Origin: Ianthella basta
Taxonomy: Eukaryota > Porifera > Demospongiae > Verongiida > Ianthellidae
Direction of reading: 5' to 3'
DNA: 64,000 bases
NCBI GenBank assembly: GCA_964019415.1
Contig: OZ025886.1
Location: 3,295,701-3,359,700 of the forward strand
A model generated the notes under the pieces. The model searched no databases. It was not told the origin of the DNA and worked only from the letters and a program-made list of their open reading frames with translations. The stretch's first letter is position 1. The number at the start of each line of letters is the position of its first letter. The position numbers and the translations under genes were made by a program. Of this stretch, positions 10,375 through 61,000 are shown in pieces.

Positions 10375-11288
10375 TAGCAAGAGGGGAGAAATTTTACCTT
10401 GCATTCAGGACTTCTCAATCCTAGTTCCGGCACACGCCACCAATAAATGTCAAAGGAGGTTTATTCTGACTATTAGCAAAGGAGGAGGGTTTGCAGCCTG
10501 AACTTCATCCCTGGCCTTTAAAGGTACCATATGACTTACTCATGCCCATAAGTAATGATTTGCAGCCCGAAATCAGGCCCTTATTTCCAAAAAATGCAAA
10601 ACAAATATGCTTGTACCTATTAGCAAGGGGGGTGGTTAGCACTCCATATTCTGATCCTTACCTCCACGATGATAAAACAACTTTTCTTGTGACAATTGGG
10701 AAGGGGAGAAGATTTGTAACCCAACTCGGTACACACCTTTGATACAAGTTAAAGGACTTTCTCATCACCATTAGCTAAGAGAGGATTTGGAAACCTCCTA
10801 ATGATCCCAAGAGACATTACTCATGCTCATTGGTAAGGGCAATGCTCGTAAGCAGCGTAAATTTGGGTGACTATACCTCTAAAAGCCCTTAAATGACATT
10901 TCACATGATACCAATGGGATGTACATGCCTAAATACCAGATTCAGGCATTAACCTCCAGATGGTATCAAGCAAATTTTCTCATGAACATTAGCAAGGGGA
11001 AACATTTGCACTCCAGGCACTCAAGGCATTTACCTTTAATAGCTGCTAAAGGACTCTTCTCAAGCCCATTAGTGTAGAGGTTTGCAACGAAATTCAGGCT
11101 CTTACAACAAATAGGTGTCCAAGGACTATTCTCATGACCATTAGCAAGTGGGCAGAGTTTGCACTCAAAATTGGGTACTTAATTATATAATATTTTCTAA
11201 AGTATTTTACTGATGCCAATCAGTAAGGTGGAAGGGTTCCATTTAATATTCGGGCCATAAACTCCAAAAGGTAGTAAACTACATTTGT
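10375..11288 (-). repeat. Satellite, variant monomer, reverse orientation
   Basis: Monomers of about 75-90 bp contain TTCTCATGACCATTAGCAAG and GGAGGGTTTGCA blocks. They are a subfamily of the 3420-10013 satellite. The last 14 bases (11275-11288, TAAACTACATTTGT) reappear with one change right after the retrozyme array at 12671-12684. Confidence 0.7.
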
Positions 11289-11473
11289 TCAAAAGTGACT
11301 CTTGCAGTTAGGCCCCTGCAAAGGCTAGGTTTGTTGCTTGAAAGATTACTGGGTTTACGCCACCAACCAACTACACCAGTATTGGTGTTACAGTTGGTTG
11401 GGAGACCCAAAAGGCCCTATTAAGTTGGTAAGTTGGCAACCAGTGATTCCCTTCCCCCTTACATCCTACAAAG

Positions 11474-11532
11474 ATGGAAGACCCACAGACAGCTGTTTCG
11501 CCCTAATTGGGGCTCATCAGTGTGGCACACTG
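11474..11532 (-). ncRNA. Hammerhead ribozyme, unit 1
   Basis: Read on the minus strand: CCACA stem I strand, CTGATGA, stem II GCCC/GGGC with loop CAATTA, GAAA, ACAGCTGT, cleavage after the GTC (between 11488 and 11487), then TGTGG. All invariant core bases are present. The sixth stem I pair is lost (TGTGGG instead of TGTGGC), so stem I next to the core is 5 bp. Confidence 0.85.
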
Positions 11533-11847
11533 ATGGTAATAGGATGAATGCCACCTCCATATGTATCCACCACAAGCTAAAACACTTGTGGTTTCAACAC
11601 ATAGAAGCAGCATAAAATTAGGGGGCAGCCTCAGCCAAGAAGACGGCTGGAGTCGGGGTTGTTCAAAAGTGACTCTTGTAGTTAGGCCCCTACAAAGGCT
11701 AGGTTTGTTGCTTGAAGGATCACTGGGTTTACGCCACCAACCAACTACACCAGTATTGGTGTTACAGTTGGTTGGGAGGCCCAAAAGGCCCTATTAAGTT
11801 GGTAAGTTGGCAACCAGTAATTCCCTTCCCCCTAACATCCTACAAAG

Positions 11848-11906
11848 ATGGAAGAGCCACAGACAGCTGTTTCGCCCTAATTGGGGCTCATCAGTGTGGC
11901 ACACTG
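11848..11906 (-). ncRNA. Hammerhead ribozyme, unit 2
   Basis: This copy has the intact core with a perfect 6-bp inner stem I (GCCACA with TGTGGC), stem II GCCC/GGGC and the palindromic stem III ACAGCTGT. The predicted cleavage is between 11862 and 11861 on the minus strand, exactly 374 nt from the unit 1 site. The two sites delimit one monomer. Confidence 0.88.
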
Positions 11907-12220
11907 ATGGTAATAGGATGAATGCCACCTCCATATGTATCCACCACAAGCTAAAACACTTGTGGTTTCAACACATAGAAGCAGCATAAAATTAGGGGGA
12001 AGCCTCAGCCAGAAGACGGCTGGAGTCAGGGTTGTTCAAAAGTGACTCTTGCAGTTAGGCCTTTGCAAAGGCTAGGTTTGTTGCTTGAAGGATCACTGTT
12101 TTTACACTACCAACCAACTACACCAGTGTTGGTGTTACAGTTGGTTGGGAGGCCCAAAAGGCTCTATTAAATTGGTAAGTTGGCAACCAGTGATTCCCTT
12201 CCCTCTAACATCCTACAAAG

Positions 12221-12278
12221 ATGGAAGAGCCACAGACAGCTGTTTCGCCCTGATTGGGGCTCATCAGTGTGGTGTACT
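12221..12278 (-). ncRNA. Hammerhead ribozyme, unit 3 (truncated unit)
   Basis: The core CTGATGA ... GAAA and the GTC site are intact; the stem II loop is CAATCA. Inner stem I keeps CCACA/TGTGG. Just outside, the unit is interrupted by the junction with the inverted copy, so outer stem I is lost. The predicted cleavage is between 12235 and 12234, 373 nt from unit 2. Confidence 0.8.
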
Positions 12279-12460
12279 GACCAGTGATCCTTCAAGCAAC
12301 AAACCTAGCCTTTGAAGGGGCCTAACTGCAAGAGTCACTTTTGAACAACCCCGACTCCAGCCGTCTCTTGGCTGAGGCTTTCCCCTAATGTTATGCTGCT
12401 TCTATGTGTTGAAACCACAAGTGTTTTAGCTTGTGGTGGATACATATGGAGGTGGCATTC

Positions 12461-12545
12461 ATCCTATTACCATCAGTATGCCACACTGATGAGCCCCAAT
12501 TAGGGCGAAACAGCTGTCTGTGGCTCTTCCATCTTTGTAGGATGT
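12461..12545 (+). ncRNA. Hammerhead ribozyme in inverted unit 4
   Basis: On the plus strand, GCCACA precedes CTGATGA (12486-12492). Then come stem II, GAAA and ACAGCTGT, with GTC|TGTGGC cleavage between 12518 and 12519. Further out, CATCCTA (upstream) and TAGGATG (downstream) can pair as an outer stem I, leaving 13-nt internal-loop strands on both sides. That geometry would allow the loop-loop contacts known for natural type I hammerheads. Confidence 0.87.
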
Positions 12546-12684
12546 TAAGGGGAAGGGATCACTGGTTGCCATCTTACCAACTTAACAGGGCCTTCTAGCT
12601 TCCCAACCAACTGTAGCAGCAATACTGGTGTAGTTGGTTGGTGGTGTAAACCTAGTGATCCTTCAAGCAATAAACTACTTTTGT

Positions 12685-13815
12685 CATGACCATTAGTAAG
12701 GGGGAGGATTTGCACCCCAGATTCGTATAAATGCTTTTACAGGCTTCTAAAGTACATTTCACATGCCATTAGCGAGAGAGGTTGGGTAGAAAGGGTTCTC
12801 CAATACCAGCTTCATAACAGGGTTGAAAACCTTGCCGACGTTTCTACCAGATGCACTAGTCTTTTTCAGGGCGAAGGTTGGTTAGCACTCCATATTCAGA
12901 CTTTTATATACTTCCAAAATGAACCAAATTACTTTTCTTATGCCCATTAGCTAGGAGAGATGGCTGACAACCCAAATTGGGGCACATACCTCAAATAGTT
13001 GTCTAAGAATGTCTCTCATGACCATTTCAACGGTGGAGGGTTTGCAACACAATTTTGGTCTCTTACAGCAAATAGGTGCCGATGGTGACTTTCTCATGAC
13101 CATTAGCAAGTAGGGACCATATGCACTCCAGCTTGGCCCTTACCTCTAACAGTTTCTAAGTACTTTGCTCATGCTCATTACTCATTAGGTTGGGGGAGGG
13201 TGTATACTAAGAATTCGTGCCAATACTTTCCAAAAGTAGCAAACTACTTTTCTCATGACCATTAGCAAAGAGGGTGGGTTTGCACTCCAGATTCCCGCAC
13301 ATACTTCTAAAAGCGCCTACGGTACTTTTCTGATAATTATTAGCAAGGGAGGGGGAGGCTGGTTAGCACTCCATATTCAGACCCTTTCCTAAAAAATGCA
13401 CCAAACGACTTTTGTAGTAACTATTAGCTAGGGGGAGGGCTTCTACTCGAAATCCAGGTTCTTACCTCCAACTTGTAGTGAATTAGTATTCTGATGACCA
13501 TTGGCAAGGGAGAAGGGATTGCAACTCAAATTCAGGCATTTACCACCAAATGGCACCAATGAGCTTTTCTCATGTCCATTAGCAAATGGGGAATGTTTGC
13601 AGCCTTAATTCAGGTGTTTATCACTTAATGCTCCTAAAGCACTTTTTCATGTTCATTACCACTGGGGGATCGAGGTTTGTATGCCAATTTCAGCCCCATA
13701 ACTTCAAAAGGTATTAAACGACATTTCTCACGATCATTAGCACGGAGAGAGCATTTGCACTTCAACTACATGCGGGCCCTTACCTCTACTACTTCCAAAA
13801 CAACGATTTGCATTC
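12685..13815 (-). repeat. Satellite, continuation after the retrozyme array
   Basis: Variant monomers with TTCTCATGACCATTAGCAAG and GGTTTGCACTCCAGATTC blocks resume at the base where they were interrupted. No gene is seen. One Penelope-type terminus (12795-12880) interrupts the monomers. Confidence 0.7.
12795..12880 (+). mobile_element. Penelope-like terminal fragment
   Basis: The sequence contains AATACCAGCTTCATAACAGG, then GACGTTTCTACC and CTTTTTCAGGGCG. The order (ACCAGCTTC, GTTTC, CTTCAGGGCG) matches the left terminus of the Penelope-like remnant at 14678-14745. It is a short orphan end with no coding sequence. Confidence 0.5.
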
Positions 13816-16418: not shown

Positions 16419-16754
16419 GGGTCAGGTGCATTATCCGGACCAAGGTGAATTTCACAACAGCTTAGCCTTGGGCGCTCGCTACAACTTAGTCTTGGGCGCT
16501 CGCTACAACTTAGTCTTGGGCGCTCGCTACAACAACTTAGTCTTGGGTGCTCGCTACAACAACTTAGTCTTGGGTGCTCGCTACAACAACTTAGCCTTGG
16601 GCGCTCGCTACAACAACCTAGCCTTGGGTGCTCGCTACAACAACTTAGCCATGGGCGCTCGCTACAACAACTTAGCCTTGGGCGCTCGCTACAACAACTA
16701 AGCCTTGGGTGCTCGCTACAGTTAGGGTTAGGGTCCGGATAATGTACCTGATCC
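16419..16754. mobile_element. 336-bp hAT-like MITE with internal minisatellite, 8-bp TSD
   Basis: The 22-bp terminal inverted repeats (starting GGGTCAGGTGCATTATCCGG, ending CCGGATAATGTACCTGATCC) have two mismatches. The flanks GTCACTTC (16411-16418) and GTCCCTTC (16755-16762) form an 8-bp target duplication with one mismatch. The insertion interrupts the RecQ exon between motifs I and Ia. Its interior is almost wholly minisatellite, ending in GTTAGGGTTAGGG. Confidence 0.8.
16461..16720 (+). repeat. 24/27-bp minisatellite (LALGARYNN-type), about 10 copies
   Basis: The unit CTTAGCCTTGGGCGCTCGCTACAA is repeated. Early copies are 24 bp and later copies 27 bp through an extra CAA. Both lengths are multiples of three, so frames stay open on both strands (GARYNNLAL-type on plus, CSERPRLSC-type on minus). 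I read it as non-coding. Confidence 0.9.
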
Positions 16755-52000: not shown

Positions 52001-55000
52001 TAGTCCTGGAGCTCAAGGTGTAAGGTAGCATCTACGATATGACAGTATAACATTAACATTTCGTTCCTTTTTCCAGAAAACAGTAACTGTCCTACGGTCT
52101 GTTAATTCGCTCCATTTAGAATAGAATGGTTGCAAAACAAAGCAATTTGAAGTGCAGCATGGAATTAATATAATTAGGTATAGTCCAAAGGGATTTGTGC
52201 ACTCGTAGTGTTGAATACGCGGCAGAGGTGTAAACAGCAGCCCAAATATTTGAAATCATGTGTCTCCCATGCTAGCCCACCAGAAAGAACTCAGTAACAA
52301 TAGCCAGAAGCTAACTGTGTAGTAATTGAAAGTGGCAGAAAATGCACTACATGGGTGTCCTTTGAAATGACGTGCAAGCTAACTTTGGTTGAAAGTTGTA
52401 GCGGACAGCTCCAAATGGTCATGTGACTTGTTGTGAGGCTAGTGAGCAAATTGAAGGCTGATTAAGAGGAAAACTGCTGTTTATTGTAAAATTTCATCAT
52501 AAAATGGTGTCTTGTGTGTGAAAACATCTTCTGAAAAAGCCCAGAAACCCCTATCTGTGAAACTTGCTTTCTAACCCATAAGAATACAGCCAGTTGAAAG
52601 TGCGTAATGCTGTTGCAAAAGCTTTCTACTGCTTGCAATGGTTTGTGTGCTACTCCTGTCAGAGAATAAGAAGAATAACGATCACACCTCGTGGGATCGT
52701 TTATCCCGCTTCAGTTCTCGTTGTTTAAGGTTGCCACGAAGGGGAGCCCAAGGCGGCTCGTTAGCTACTCTTGTTAACAGGCAGATCGAAGCGGAGACAG
52801 ACCCACCAGATGCCACAGCCGACCCCCGACCTAACAGAGGCCAGTACCTTTCTAAGGATCCGCTTAGGTCCTTGGCAGCCCGAGTCTCAGCGAAACTAGA
52901 GGAGGGGGATTTCAAAGGAGCGGTCAGAATCGCTAGCTCAGAGGAGACACTAGCACCCCTAGATAACACCACCTTTGCTGCTCTCCAGGACAAGCACCCC
53001 CCACCCCACCCTGACTCAGTCTACCCCCTTCTGCAGGAGGATGTTTGGCCACACCCCATTTCTGTGTCAGACAAGAGCATCTTAAGGGCCATTCGTTCCT
53101 TCCCAAACGGTTCTGCAGGTGGGCCCGATGGCCTCAAGCCTCAACACCTGAAGGACATGATTGGTCCCTCTGTCAGCTGTTGTGGCCTCCTCCCTGCCCT
53201 TGGACATTTCGTGGAACTGGTGTTGGAAGGCAGAACCCCTCCACTTTGGAGGCCTTTCTTCTTTGGGGCTAACCTCACAGCACTACAGAAGAAGGGTGGC
53301 GGCATCAGGCCGATTGCCATTGGTTGCACCCTACGTCGCCTAGCGGCCAAGGTGATGGGAGGTGAGTTGAAGGAAGAGATGAGGGAGCTCCTAGCGCCTT
53401 GGCAGTTGGGTTATGGAGTTCGGAAGGGAGCCGAAGCAGCAGTGCATGCCGCAAGGCTCTACCTGCACAACCTTGACTCCACCAAGGCCCTCCTCAAGTT
53501 GGACTTTAGCAACGCCTTCAACTCCATCCGTAGAGACAAGATGTTTAGAGCAGTCCTGGAGCTAGCCCCCAGACTGTTTCGCTTTGTTCACTCTGCCTAC
53601 TCCTCCCCATCCACTCTGTTTTGGGGAGATCAGACCATCCAGTCAGCAGAAGGGGTACAGCAGGGAGATCCTTTAGGACCCTTGCTCTTTTGCCTAACAA
53701 TCCATCAGCTGGGGCCCAAATTGATCTCTGAATTCCAAATGTTCTACCTGGATGATGGCACCCTGGGTGGTACTGCCGATGATCTCAGACATGATTTAGA
53801 GGAGGTGGTGAGAGTGGGAGCAGAAATTGGCCTGGAATTGAATGAAGTGAAGTCTGAAATTATCTGTAATTCCTGTAATCGTGACACTATTGACCCTTTG
53901 CTGCTCTCCATCCCAGGGGCCCTGGTCGTGGAACCCCAAGAGGCCACTCTTTTGGGATCTCCCATAGGTGAGGTCTCCTCCATCTCCAGCACCCTTGCCG
54001 ACAAATGCAACGCCCTGAAGACCATGGGGGACAGACTTGCACATCTATCCACCCACGATGCCATTGTCCTCCTCAAGCATTCTTTTGCCCTGCCTAAGCT
54101 GATGCACTGCTTGAGGACAGCACCCTGCTTCTTGTCTTCCAGACTCCAAGATTATGATGAGCTCCTGAAGTCCATCGTAAGTGATATCACCAACATCCGT
54201 TTTCCGGATGACAGCACCAGCTGGAGCCAGGCCACACTCCCAGTGAGGTTAGGGGGACTAGGCATCAGAAGAGCAGTGCAGCTGGCGCCATCAGCTTATC
54301 TGGCCTCAATAGCTGCCTCCTCTGATCTGGTGCGCCGTATTGTGCCTCCCCATCTTCATGATGCACCCCTCTCCAACCAGGGTGAAGCTGAGGCCTGCTG
54401 GTCAAAGGGTCACAGCCTTCCACCACCAGAAGGAGAAGCCAGGCTACATCAGAGGTCATGGGACAGCATCGTAGTGGTTTCAGTTGCTGACAGCCTCCTG
54501 CAGACAGCACCCAGCCCCACTGCCCGAGCCCGCTTGCTTGCATGTTCAACTAGAGAGTCAGGAGCCTGGTTGGAAGCTTTGCCAATCTCTCCCCTTGGCC
54601 TACGCATGGAAGACCAGACAGTCAGGATTGCAATTGGTCTACGCCTGGGAACCCCTTTGTGCAGCCCCCACACTTGCCTTCACTGTGGTGCAGAGGTCGA
54701 TGCCCTGTCAACGCACGGCCTCAGCTGTCGAAGAAGCCAGGGACGTCACTACCGCCATGCAGCATTAAATGATGTTATACACAGATCACTGTCTGCGGCT
54801 AATGTCCCCTCACGACTTGAGCCATCAGGCTTGGAACGGGCAGACGGAAAACGTCCTGATGGGGTCACTGTGGTCCCTTGGAAGAGCGGGAAGCATCTGG
54901 TTTGGGATGCTACCAGCCCAGTCACCTTTGCCCCTTCGTATCTCTTAAGTGCCACCAATGAAGCAGGAGCAGTGGCAGCAGCAGCAGAGAGCAAGAAGAA

Positions 55001-58000
55001 GTCCAAGTACAGCTGTCTGGGCCCAGCTTACTTCTTCACCCCAGTTGCCATCGAGACCTCAGGTGCTTGTGGCCCGCTGACCCTGGAGTTCCTGAGGGAC
55101 CTTGGCAACCGCCTCAGACAAGCGACGGGTGAGGAGAGTTCGTTTGCCTACCTCCTCCAGAGGCTATCTGTGGCCGTCCAAAGGGGCAACGCAGCTTCCG
55201 TCTTGGGGACTAGCTCCCTAAGCATTGATTGATTGATTGATTTAATTGAGTTGATTTGATTGATTTCATTTGATTTAATTTGATCAGTATGATTGTTTAA
55301 TTAATGTCACATATGCTTTATGTTTGACTTATAGGCTTAAATTTTGCTTATTTATTAGGATATGGTTAGGAAGTCCCTCATTTACCTCATCTTGTTGTTC
55401 TCCAATTTTCAAAAAAAAAAATTAGTATTTTAAAAGAAGAATAAGAAAACTAAATACAGAAAATGTCACGGTTGTTTTCTGCAAAAGCATGCACTTCACC
55501 ATGAAAGCCAGGTTAGTCCTGAGTAGTATACAACTGACACGCCTCAGGGGTAACCTTTTTGCATATTTTTAGCCCTATATGGGATAGCACTCATGTTTCC
55601 ACATTGACCACATACTGGCTACCTTATGCAGCAATAGCCTGCATCTTATCATTATAATTAGCTTGTCGATTCAAGAAGCATTATCCATTAGCTAAACCCA
55701 CAAAAGTTTGTTTCCAGCTCCATATTAGATCAGCAGGAATGCACAAGACCTAAGAAGGAGTATTGATATAGAAGTGCTTCTCTTGTTTAAGCCGTGCACA
55801 GAGGAAATGAGTGCTTTTGACAGAATGAGGATTGTGTAACTACGTGAAGGGCTTTCAGTTTTGCAACACCACAATTTTCATGTCATTGCTCTCTGAAACT
55901 ATCCAACTATGAAACTTCCACCTCATCTCCTGTAGCCTGCTTGCTCTCAGCTTGGGTTGAATAGCTTCCTCAGAATTCTTTGGCTTCCTCAGCTATAAAT
56001 TCACTTTCATTGGCGCTAGGTAGTGTTCGCTTCCTGATTCCGCTCCTCTTACCAATTTCACATCTTCCGCATCAACCACTCCTGGACTCAGCATTTTCCT
56101 GGTGATGACATAGTCTATAATAGACCTGTGGCCTGGACCTTTACTCTCCCAAATGAACTTATGCATGCCTTTTATGTTGGTAGAAGGTGTTCAAAACTCG
56201 TAACTAACTCATTCATGACACATAACCTTAGCAACCTTTGCGCACTTCCAATATTTGCTGCCTCCCCATGCCTCTCTCCCCAGTTGCAACATCTCTCTGT
56301 ACTGTCATATTGAGGTCACCCATTCATGGCACATAACCTCAGCAACATTTGGACCAGATAGTCACAATTTGGTACACAAGCTACGTATCATCACCTCCTA
56401 GTCCTCATAGATGTTTTGTTCATGTCTGTGAATGTGTACTCCTGTATCAGTGTAGCCCCTCTACCATCAGATCACAGCCTCACCTATATAAACCTTTTTA
56501 CTTTCACACTTCTACTCCATTACACACACATCAGTTTCTCTGAAGTGCGTGTTCTTGTCTTTGTATTGTTCTATATCCTTGCATCATCATTTTTGCAGAC
56601 AGTTTTGTTGTTCACTAGTAGTTTGCAGAGCCCATTTAAGGAGAGCCATTGCATGAATAGGCCTAACTCCCAAACCAGACCTTGCCAAACCACTTTTTAC
56701 TCGGCCTTCCACGAAAACACCACTGCTACCTCACCGACTTGCCTCTCGCCACAGCCTCACAACACTCGCAGTCCTACATTTTTCATGATCTATTTTGTTC
56801 ACTCTTGTAAGAAGATTCCATAGCTGATGCTCCACTGTGTAACATACCTTTCTTGTTTTTGTATTGTTCTATATCCTTGCATCATCACTTTTGCAGACAG
56901 TTTTAGTTGTTCACTAGTAGTTTGCAAAGTCTATTTAAAGAGAGCCATTGCATGAATAGGTCTAATGCCCAAACCAGACTATTTCTTCCTCGTTGATGGT
57001 GCTGTCAACAACCCTGTTCTATTGTATCATTACACATGATGACTGTTCGCCACTCTTGTCAATTCTATATATTTCATTGCAACATGTATTCTACTAGTAT
57101 CAAGACATCCACTATGTGCAATTGTCCTTCCTCCAGCTATAACTGCATCATCTGGACTGGCAGCCACTTCAATGGTATTGCAAACCATGAAGTCTGGAGA
57201 TCATGTTCTGTCTGTGAACGATGTCTATGGAGGTTAGTAGGATTTGGTTGAATTGATTTTCACAATCAATGTGTGGTTTGGCTCTGACATGATTGATCCT
57301 GATACCCAGTTTACAATGTACACTGGCTCATAAGTGTTTGGTACAGCAACATAAATGAATTTATCTATTTTCCCATAGTGAGGAACTGACAGAATTTGAG
57401 CATTCTAAAAGGAAATGGCATCAAAGTAGCTGGGTGTAGCTTGTTTAGCATTGTTATTCATAGTTTAGCCACAGTACATCAATACAGGTTCTGACTTCTA
57501 CGTATGTCTTTGATTCTAGAGTGGAGATGTTAGCTAGAATGTAGGCTTTTCACCAACCTGGAATGTAACTTAGAATGGCAACCAGAAACTAACAGTGCAC
57601 TAATTAGCAATGGTAGGCAAATGGTATCTGTATCTGTAATCTTATTTAATCTAGGGAAACCTGTAACCCGTAGACTACTTTTCAAGGTACCCAGAAAAGA
57701 AAGTATAAGGATAGGGGGTGATAAGACAGGGGAGCATGATACAAGTAGAGTAAAGAATGACAGACAATTGAACAATCAATTAAGTTGATGACACAAGATT
57801 AAGTGAAGTAAATGTATGACTAATACTAATAAATTGACTGTGCACATGCAGGGAGTAGAATCAGGCTGTGGTGTAAAATTTAGTTCAACGTTCATGGTCA
57901 CAGCTCATGGGATAATAAGTGAGTGCGTGCAGCAGACAAGAAAAAGTCAGGGTGCTGGATTTGTCTTAACTTGGGAAGCAGTGAGTTCCAGCTTTAAGCT

Positions 58001-61000
58001 CCCTGGAAGACAAAGATCCTCTTCCCAAAGCCAGCCTTCACTTTTGGTAAATGGAGGCCATTTGATGATGCAGATCTAGTGCCATGGCTGTGTAAGGACA
58101 CTGCTGGCCTGAGAAGGCAGGAATGGTAGGGAGGACTGGACTGTGCCTTGAGATGCAGCAGAACATTGTTACCACTTCACTTAGCTTCCTTCCTGAAGCA
58201 AGTGTGGGCCAACCCAAGTCCTTATGCATAGAGGTGGCAGACGCTCCCCAGTGACACTGGAGAAGAAGGTGTGCAGCATAATTCTGAGGGCACTCCAGCC
58301 TGGCACTTTCTGCTGCTGTACAAGTGCTCCAGATGATGTCAGCATAGGTAAAATGGGCAGAATGTAGGCGTTATAGTAGCATAGTATGGCTTCTTTTGGT
58401 AGGAACCAAGCTATCTTGCGAAGAAGGTTGAACCCTTTGGATGTTTTACTACAACAGTATGACTGCAGGTGGATGACAGCAGCTCCTCCCAGTGTCACAG
58501 GAAGCTGCTAGTATTGCTGCTAAAGAGGGCAAGCCCTTGGTTTCTGGAGCTTGCGGACCGTGCCTCCATTAAACTTGAGAATCTCCACTCCAGGATAGAC
58601 CGCCTGCCTTGATACAGAAGACGAACAACCTTGTGGATACTGTGCTGGGGCTGGAAGCCAGTTGGTGCACAGCGGTATCTATGTACATACATACAACCTG
58701 TAGCTCTATTGGAACAAGTTGCAATCTCCAACTCAGCTAGATGTTTCTAACAGAAGCATTGGCACCATATTCACACTACTTGTGTGAATATGGTGTACAG
58801 GAGGCAACTGCAAGCTACATTGTAGATATGTACGCATATCTCGGTATGACTATGATTATTACCCAAGACAGAGGAGAGCCAAGGTCATGGGTGATAACTT
58901 GATATCACATGAGGAAAGGGATGTAACTGGTTTCTATCCCATCTGATTGGATATGCACACGTTTTAAGTCCTATTCTGCAGTGCTAATCTGTGACATTAA
59001 TCTTCTTCATGCGCCATTAAAGAGATGCACTTTCTGGTTAAGGATGGACTAGAGGGTAGCACAAATGATACTTAGTCCAACGTGGTACAACCAGAGACTA
59101 CCCAACCAGGCGTCACTTGGGTCAGGTGAGGATGAGCATGTGTTGTATGTGCAAATGAAGGAGGCATCATGGAGGACCACAACAGTAGTGTCGTGGTAAC
59201 AACTAAGATGTCAAGAGGTGATAGTTGCTAGATTAAAGGATAATTGCTGCGTAGAAATGATTGAGAAGGAAAGGATAATAAGCGTAAGTACAGCAAGGCT
59301 TGATGGAAGGAGCCACGTCCAAAGACAAGGCCTGATGGAAGGAGCTACATTTGAAGACCTTAAAGGCAACCTGTCAAAACACGTCACGATCGGCGTCGTC
59401 ACTGTCTGTAGACCTAAGCCGTTTCAAAGGTCTACGGACAGTGACGATGCCAATCGCGACTTGTTTTGACAGGTTGCCTTTAAGGTGTTCGGACGTAGCT
59501 CCTTCCATCAGGCCTTGTCTTCGGACGTGGCTCCTTCCATCGGGCCTTGCTGTGTTTACGCTTATTATCCTTTCCTTCTCAACCATTTCTACGCAGCAAT
59601 TATCCTTTAATCTGGCAACAATCAACTCAAGCATGGTTTACATGGGCTGCGGAGTGAGTGGTTGCTGGCAGAGCGTCGTAGCTCAGTGGCTAGAGCACTG
59701 GCAGCTAAAGCCAGATGTCCTGGGTTCGATTCCAGGCGGCGCCACTTTCTTTGCAGCCCAAAGTCATTTCAAAGGTCTACGGACAGTGACAACGCCGATC
59801 GTGACTTGTTTCGACAGGTTGCCTTTAAGGTCTTCGGATGTAGCTCCTTCCATTGGGCCTTGTCTTCGGACATGGCTCCTTCCATTGGGCCTTGCTGTGC
59901 TTACGCTTATTATCCTTTCCTTCTCAAGAGGTGATAGTTATGTTGATAGGTGATAGCTATCACTTATTTTTCGTCCAGTGGTTGTTAGGTTCCTAGTTAT
60001 TACTGGGAGATAGCTAAGTTATCACTGGTTGATAACTTCCTTACCCTACACTAAAATGCTTTGATGTTACCATCCACTGGGACAGAATTGCAGTAACTGT
60101 AAGAAATACAAGTGGAGATGGAACTGACACTAGAGTGTAGGTGTTTGCCGTTACAGTATCTGCATACTATGGTGGTTCTATTGCTCAGAAAAGTAGGCCA
60201 TACGTACTTAGTTTAGAAACATTTTGAGAAGAGAATGTATCCCTCATCTTCTTCTTTTCAGCATACATATGTTGTACGGAGACACACCAGTGTCCACATA
60301 AGATGAAGTGTACGTATGTTCTTAGCACTGCACTCAGTTGAGTACTATCTTTATTGTTTACTGCTTGAATCCACTGGAATCCGTTTGGATTTGAATGGAT
60401 TGAAATGTATTTGAAAGAAAGATAGGCCGTCTACCGTAAGGGACTCCACGTGCACTTCTACTGTTCATGTACTGTATACACTGCTTTCTTACCATGAGCA
60501 GCTTTGTGCTCTTCATTGCAATCGTTAGTAATTTGTTGAATTACTGGGGCGATTTGCAATTTTATCTGATGCCAGTTGAGCAACTTGGTGTAAACCCCTT
60601 CCACTGTTCCCTCATGGCAATCATAAACAGTAGTTAATGCAGTTTTTGGTGTTGATCAACACTGCATTCGTCAAAATGCATGTTGCCTTCATGAGCCTTG
60701 TTTGTGTGGTTGCTTTCATTGGGTGTAGCAAGGCTGCTTGCAATTTATGCATGAATAGTTATTATTGCTACTGCACTGTATATTCCACTGATGCCTCCCC
60801 AGGATGAGAATGAAATATATACTCAAACTATCACACCAATCTATCTATTAGGACCTGAGTATTTTGATCATCTGTGACTGAAATTACAGTGATCATTTTT
60901 GCTGATGTGCAGGCACGAACCGTTACTTCCAAAGAGTTATTAGCAGTTTCAACATTGAAACCAGCTTCGTGGATGCTACTGATGCCTGCAATGTGGAAAA

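Follow-up and report, generated by a model that had tools for sequence, protein, structure and literature searches.

How a non-coding repeat comes to lie in a genome with its units facing in opposite directions is the question raised by a short array of hammerhead-bearing units in the sponge Ianthella basta. The array lies in a stretch of 64,000 nucleotides (hereafter the window; positions 3,295,701 to 3,359,700 of contig OZ025886.1, assembly GCA_964019415.1), and a preliminary description made from the sequence of this stretch had read it as a retrozyme array of three direct units and one inverted unit. We find that it is almost certainly one insertion of a dispersed family of animal non-long-terminal-repeat (non-LTR) retrozymes, in which the inverted copy is not a further member of the array but the second arm of the insertion. 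The element is an additional retrozyme within a known kind; the novelty lies in the mechanism revealed by its copies. We consider it probable that these copies arose by two-ended insertion, carried out by machinery of the Penelope-like element (PLE) type on a circular retrozyme RNA template.

Two arms and two fixed ends across the genome

The 374-bp unit has at least 163 matches in the genome searched (209 Mb in 96 contigs), a search that the preliminary description had proposed as a check. One contig, of 21,233 bp, encodes a mitochondrial COX1 in which nine TGA codons are read as Trp and AGA occurs at six conserved Arg positions, as fits mitochondrial code 4 and hence a non-bilaterian animal. 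The insertions described here are the dispersed loci among the unit matches listed, and they were tallied by script over 37 loci, with matches below 85% identity dropped. The 38 insertions of this family (family 1) comprise 29 with two arms and nine with one. Read along the plus strand, all 29 two-armed insertions have the antisense arm first and the sense arm second ('+ then -'), and the RNA sense therefore points outward in every one of them. The outer ends occupy two set positions in the unit. One of them, in each of the 28 scorable insertions, is at a start site that we call S2 (positions 1-4 of the unit), and its counterpart is at S1 (position 37-55, and within 42-51 in 25 of the 28). The 29th insertion, L035, enters masked letters, and apparent duplicates (L014/L015, the two copies at L021 and L039/L040) leave about 26 of the 28 independent. 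The nine one-armed insertions, read from the table by eye, start at S1 in six cases and at S2 in three.

Arms reach lengths of up to ~1.2 kb, and their inner ends vary in position. Among 58 inner ends from 32 loci (a set that omits L009, L015, L033, L035, L040 and the second L021 copy), one is no more than 5 nt from the cleavage site and 17 cluster at unit 48-77 (scan P ~1e-4). A strong inverted repeat, at unit ~79-117, directly follows this cluster.

Flanking target DNA is duplicated at nearly all insertions. The longest stretch common to the two flanks has a median length of 12 bp and reaches at least 7 bp in 35 of 37 insertions, compared with 8.3% of 2000 mismatched pairs (L035, with its masked flank, is omitted). 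As to where insertions are found, a shared simple repeat (CTTACCTTGTCATATCTTGCC and variants) hosts the retrozyme insertions L011, L014, L015, L020, L027 and L045 as well as a PLE, L078, and at L021:2072-4315 a single insertion is present twice, in facing copies within a large inverted duplication.

Units of the same array also carry the same haplotype. At 10 segregating positions in 34 loci (omitting L009, L035, L040 and the second L021 copy), 761 of 781 comparisons between units within an array show agreement (63.0% expected), as do 469 of 482 between the two arms of an insertion. Such arms would be expected from a circular template or from a uniform multimer, and homogenisation within arrays may contribute to their uniformity. 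A linear monomer cut at the hammerhead would not yield the shared haplotypes, the inner ends away from the cleavage site and the long arms.

Two further families were found. Family 2 (unit ~361 bp, ~76% alike to family 1) has the '+ then -' order in all nine two-strand loci when its match list is read by eye, and its loci L074 and L075 have one end per start site. Family 3, found beside L029, consists of ~3.8 units followed by 1.3 inverted ones, with outer ends ~52 nt apart by their BLAST limits. A candidate S1-S2 hairpin would pair TGCAG with CTGCA in families 1 and 3, AGCAG with CTGCT in family 2 and TGTAG with CTACA in unit 2 of the window, but its covariation is weak, with several one-sided breaks (the comparison leaves out rows f1_L030 and f3_L029b, and uses the letters of family 1, which are valid, and not its pair scores).

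Resident Penelope-like elements and the proposed mechanism

The same end rule is observed in the PLEs resident in this genome. A search for the GIY-YIG endonuclease domain gave 55 matches. In the list as read, 13 pairs of neighbours at most ~3 kb apart have the order 'minus then plus', none has the reverse order, and there are two same-strand neighbours. The loci L049, L050 and L053 were found by this search and excluded from the PLE set; a frame of L053 outside its GIY-YIG match consists of leucine-rich repeats. Both outer ends were read for 10 of the 13 pairs. PLEs of families A and B, the first of which has a frame carrying both RVT_1 and GIY-YIG, end at two sites ~32-36 nt apart, and one arm ends at each site in all nine scorable pairs, with duplications of 9-15 bp. 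Family C likewise stops at two places, each seen in different copies (L077; L069 and L078). A minimal hammerhead was recognised by eye after the open reading frame of families A and B, and the Rfam search of loci L049-L060, family A included, gave no RF00163 match at E up to 0.5. When the family-2 tail was used to search the genome for a partner PLE, all 45 matches were retrozyme-like in identity (44 of them at 96-100% over most of the query), and no PLE with the retrozyme start-site sequence was seen (two of the loci were read). A likeness of GCAATGAACC in the PLEs to GCAACAAACC in the retrozyme differs in its register relative to the start sites, and we claim no homology.

Published work on PLEs describes corresponding features. 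Purified Anolis PLE protein cut and extended both target strands in vitro, and its reverse transcription began inside the RNA at two neighbouring sites, which correspond to the genomic 'tail' (PMC11167929). Of the inverted pseudo-LTRs (pLTRs) of a rotifer PLE, one bears the tail (PMC3846280). The retrozyme insertions thus show the signature of PLEs in an element that codes for nothing, which supports the mechanism but does not prove it.

According to this mechanism, array transcripts would cut themselves at their hammerheads into 374-nt monomers, each of which would close into an RNA circle. A Penelope-like reverse transcriptase with a GIY-YIG endonuclease would cut both target strands ~12 bp apart, and each of the free 3' ends would prime reverse transcription on the RNA, with S2 (unit 1-4) used by one of them and S1 (~unit 45) by its partner. 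On each side the RNA would be copied for anything from part of a turn to ~three turns. Joining of the two cDNAs would then leave a pair of arms with the sense facing outward, an inner joint that varies between insertions and a duplicated target. Of this scheme, we infer the RNA circle, its formation by cleavage, which enzyme acts and the succession of events. We also lean towards a more specific form of the mechanism, in which a dimeric PLE particle holds the RNA circle with one start site per protomer. Each nicked strand would then prime at its own site, and a two-armed insertion would for this reason have exactly one end of each kind. PLEs and retrozymes would share this two-ended mechanism, with the hammerhead making an endless circular template.

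The template of the same two-ended insertion might instead be linear, a multimeric transcript from an array of uniform units, with the ribozyme serving another step. A multimer of identical units yields the same arms as a circle, the units of the window array differ among themselves and the authors of the Anolis study infer that unprocessed RNA was the dominant substrate in vitro (PMC11167929). Most arrays are nevertheless uniform at the segregating sites, with arms that agree, and the state of the ribozymes suggests that cleavage is needed for spread. CTGATGA, GAAA and GTC are all present in 79 of 82 hammerheads outside one array on C22 but occur together in only 8 of 31 inside it (fuzzy search over families 1-3 and the window, with duplicates counted, copies of one array non-independent and badly decayed copies possibly missed on both sides). 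This comparison hints, without proving it, that the ribozyme is required for the family to spread, and we regard a linear template as unlikely. The C22 array itself (C22:2908307-2932669, L041-L043) is locally expanded, with 45 unit matches in two '+ then -' blocks and mostly altered core motifs, and suggests a retrozyme that is turning into a satellite.

That array is what favours a satellite origin, through unequal crossing-over and inversion, with the hammerhead present by descent only. Satellite DNA forms arrays without target duplications or fixed ends, however, and the dispersed copies have both, which refutes this origin for them; their intact cores also speak against it, and we see practically no chance that it is correct. 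Inverted 5' parts are a known product of twin priming by the machinery of long interspersed nuclear elements (LINEs), and the window contains a LINE-like RVT_1 frame without GIY-YIG (52608-55229). LINEs and short interspersed nuclear elements (SINEs) are fixed at a single end, the 3' end, which as a rule carries poly-A or a simple tail. Twin priming would fix one end only, whereas 28 of 28 insertions have two outer ends fixed at different sites, and no poly-A or simple tail was seen at the ends inspected; this origin of the inverted arm is very improbable. Snap-back self-priming of one cDNA, as suggested for rotifer PLEs (PMC3846280), would fit the 5 of 26 two-armed loci in which the arms stop at most 6 nt from the same unit position (hand count). 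The inner positions differ in the other 21, and both outer ends should lie at the same site under snap-back, which is seen in 0 of 28 insertions, so that it merits hardly any weight.

Several observations count against two-ended insertion of a circular template by PLE-type machinery. The window array is not uniform, with 37 discordant positions among the 373 covered more than once (three of the 37 are shared with other loci), and L030 is also much less uniform than the other loci (27 of 373), both as old insertions would be. L033 seems by eye to have a short inverted stretch that starts at neither S1 nor S2, L009 and L033 lack a 7-bp target duplication, and the family-2 locus L076 ends on one side close to the hammerhead and shows no clear duplication. 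Among the PLEs, one of the 10 pairs (L069/L070, family C) is unscorable, L070 ending elsewhere; the retrozyme start-site sequence does not occur at the PLE ends read (families A, B and C); and the start sites are ~45 nt apart in the retrozyme compared with 32-36 nt in the PLEs. At the RNA level, the best predicted circular fold hides the hammerhead, with CUGAUG paired to an upstream CAUCAG, and hammerhead mutants had no effect on insertion in the in vitro work of 2024 (PMC11167929).

On the question of which enzyme moves animal retrozymes, the end signature provides genome-scale evidence for PLE-type machinery. The rule of one end per site is strict and open to testing in further animal genomes, and the retrozyme offers a minimal non-coding substrate for studies of PLE insertion. 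A core that is kept in nearly all copies read but mostly altered in one local array also hints at the purpose of the ribozyme.

The window insertion and its hammerheads

The insertion in the window (Table 1) shows the same anatomy. Tandem Repeats Finder (TRF) reported a repeat at 11285-12272 with a period of 374, 2.6 copies and 95% matches, and a repeat search gave spacings of 374 and 373 between unit starts and inverted arms (11822-12098 / 12282-12558) that are 96% complementary. The period and the inversion thus stand as first described, but the count of three direct units and one inverted unit of 373-374 bp does not, as the third direct copy has 248 bp and the inverted arm 395 bp. The limits, previously 11289..12670, are adjusted to ~11285-12675, which enclose 2.66 direct copies of the 374-bp non-coding unit and the inverted arm, and a 13-bp flanking target duplication is added. 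This duplication has the consensus TAAACTAC(A/T)TTTG with one mismatch (12/13), its exact stretch being only 8 bp. The insertion is hosted by a diverged tandem repeat with a period of ~78 bp (10594-13612), which weakens the window duplication as a single case.

Table 1. Features of the retrozyme insertion and other features in the window.
Feature	Position	Strand	Details
Left target-site duplication	11275..11287		TAAACTACATTTG; TTG shared with the element's first bases; 12/13 identical to 12671-12683
Left-arm unit 1, 374 bp	11285..11658	RNA sense on minus	Outer end lies at S2 (unit 1)
Left-arm unit 2, 374 bp	11659..12032	-	Reference unit
Left-arm unit 3, 248 bp	12033..12280	-	Cut at unit position 249; inner joint 12280/12281
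Inverted right arm, 395 bp	12281..12675	RNA sense on plus	Unit 68 to 1, then 374 to 45; outer end = start site S1 (unit 45)
Right target-site duplication	12671..12683		TAAACTACTTTTG
Type I hammerhead	11482..11526	-	Predicted cleavage 11488/11487; RF00163 33.8 bits (under cut-off), E 1.3e-4
Type I hammerhead	11856..11900	-	Predicted cleavage 11862/11861; RF00163 40.1 bits, E 1e-6
Type I hammerhead	12229..12273	-	Predicted cleavage 12235/12234; RF00163 33.5 bits (under cut-off), E 1.6e-4
Type I hammerhead	12480..12524	+	Predicted cleavage 12518/12519; RF00163 40.1 bits, E 1e-6
27-bp tandem repeat	16454-16720		10 copies; reading frames open on both strands
LINE-like retroelement	52608-55229	+	874-aa open frame; RVT_1, no other Pfam match; may be intact
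tRNA-like gene	59672-59745	+	Anticodon CTA (amber); ARAGORN tRNA-Pyl, Rfam tRNA; 32-bp repeats nearby (59488 and 59830); possibly a repeat derived from a tRNA

A covariance search with the Rfam hammerhead model, also proposed at the outset, matched all four copies, each of which had been described as containing a hammerhead. Two matches exceed the curated RF00163 cut-off of 34 bits, and the other two fall short by at most half a bit, the outermost modelled stem I pair being broken in both. The sequence places all four predicted GUC cleavage sites as previously given. Each unit has the layout GCCACA-CUGAUGAG...GAAACAGCUGUC/UGUGGC, and its helix III consists of two base pairs and a palindromic AGCU loop. 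The minus-strand transcript would be expected to self-cleave and circularise. The circular monomer is predicted to fold at -149.1 kcal/mol with 67% of its bases paired, compared with -107.5 ± 6.6 kcal/mol for 100 shuffles (z -6.3). The identification as a retrozyme made in the preliminary description is supported by the covariance matches, the number of unit matches in the genome, the target duplications, the intact cores and the lack of a long reading frame, the longest stop-free run in the tripled unit being 95 codons.

Across the whole genome, the RF00163 search listed 18 matches (e.g. C1:2875200), several of which lie outside family 1 and are longer hammerheads. The hammerhead pattern had no match in the viral contig collection searched.

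Relation to known retrozymes and Penelope-like elements

Cervera and de la Pena (2020, PMC7229834) left open what mobilises animal retrozymes and considered PLEs a strong candidate. The coral and mussel non-LTR retrozymes in their account are tandem non-coding repeats of 150-450 bp with type I hammerheads and a GC content below 50%, have target duplications of more than 4 bp when these are present and occur alongside PLEs. The Ianthella family shares these features, with its 374-bp repeat, a hammerhead in each unit, non-coding sequence with 47.3% GC in the unit, target duplications, dispersed copies and a self-paired predicted RNA fold. The word 'inverted' does not occur in the text of that paper as available to us, whereas two outward arms and two fixed ends are the rule in Ianthella, and we found no report of this two-ended signature in retrozymes in the open-access literature searched. 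The hammerhead is free in most animal retrozyme circles and blocked in those of plants and in viroids (PMC7229834); in the predicted fold of the Ianthella unit it is hidden, unlike in most of the animal circles. Amphibian hammerhead satellites and axolotl retrozymes have units of 330-350 bp and a helix III that is likewise weak, capped by a tetraloop and palindromic in one of two families, and because of this weakness their hammerheads cleave better as dimers (PMC7229834). Copy numbers there reach up to ~120,000 (PMC7229834), compared with at least 163 unit matches in Ianthella, and the text of that paper as available to us gives no description of their insertion ends.

The comparison with PLEs is closer in the form of the insertions than in coding content. 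PLEs encode a reverse transcriptase and a GIY-YIG endonuclease, whereas the retrozyme is non-coding, with no frame above 95 codons in its unit, and differs in the spacing and sequence of its start sites from the PLEs read. In both, however, inverted arms face outward and one arm carries a tail, of ~30-40 bp in PLEs (PMC11167929, PMC3846280 and families A-C), an arrangement that is present in all 28 scorable two-armed retrozyme insertions. PLEs also resemble the retrozyme in their target duplications of 8-15 bp, in their hammerhead and in having two start sites for reverse transcription.
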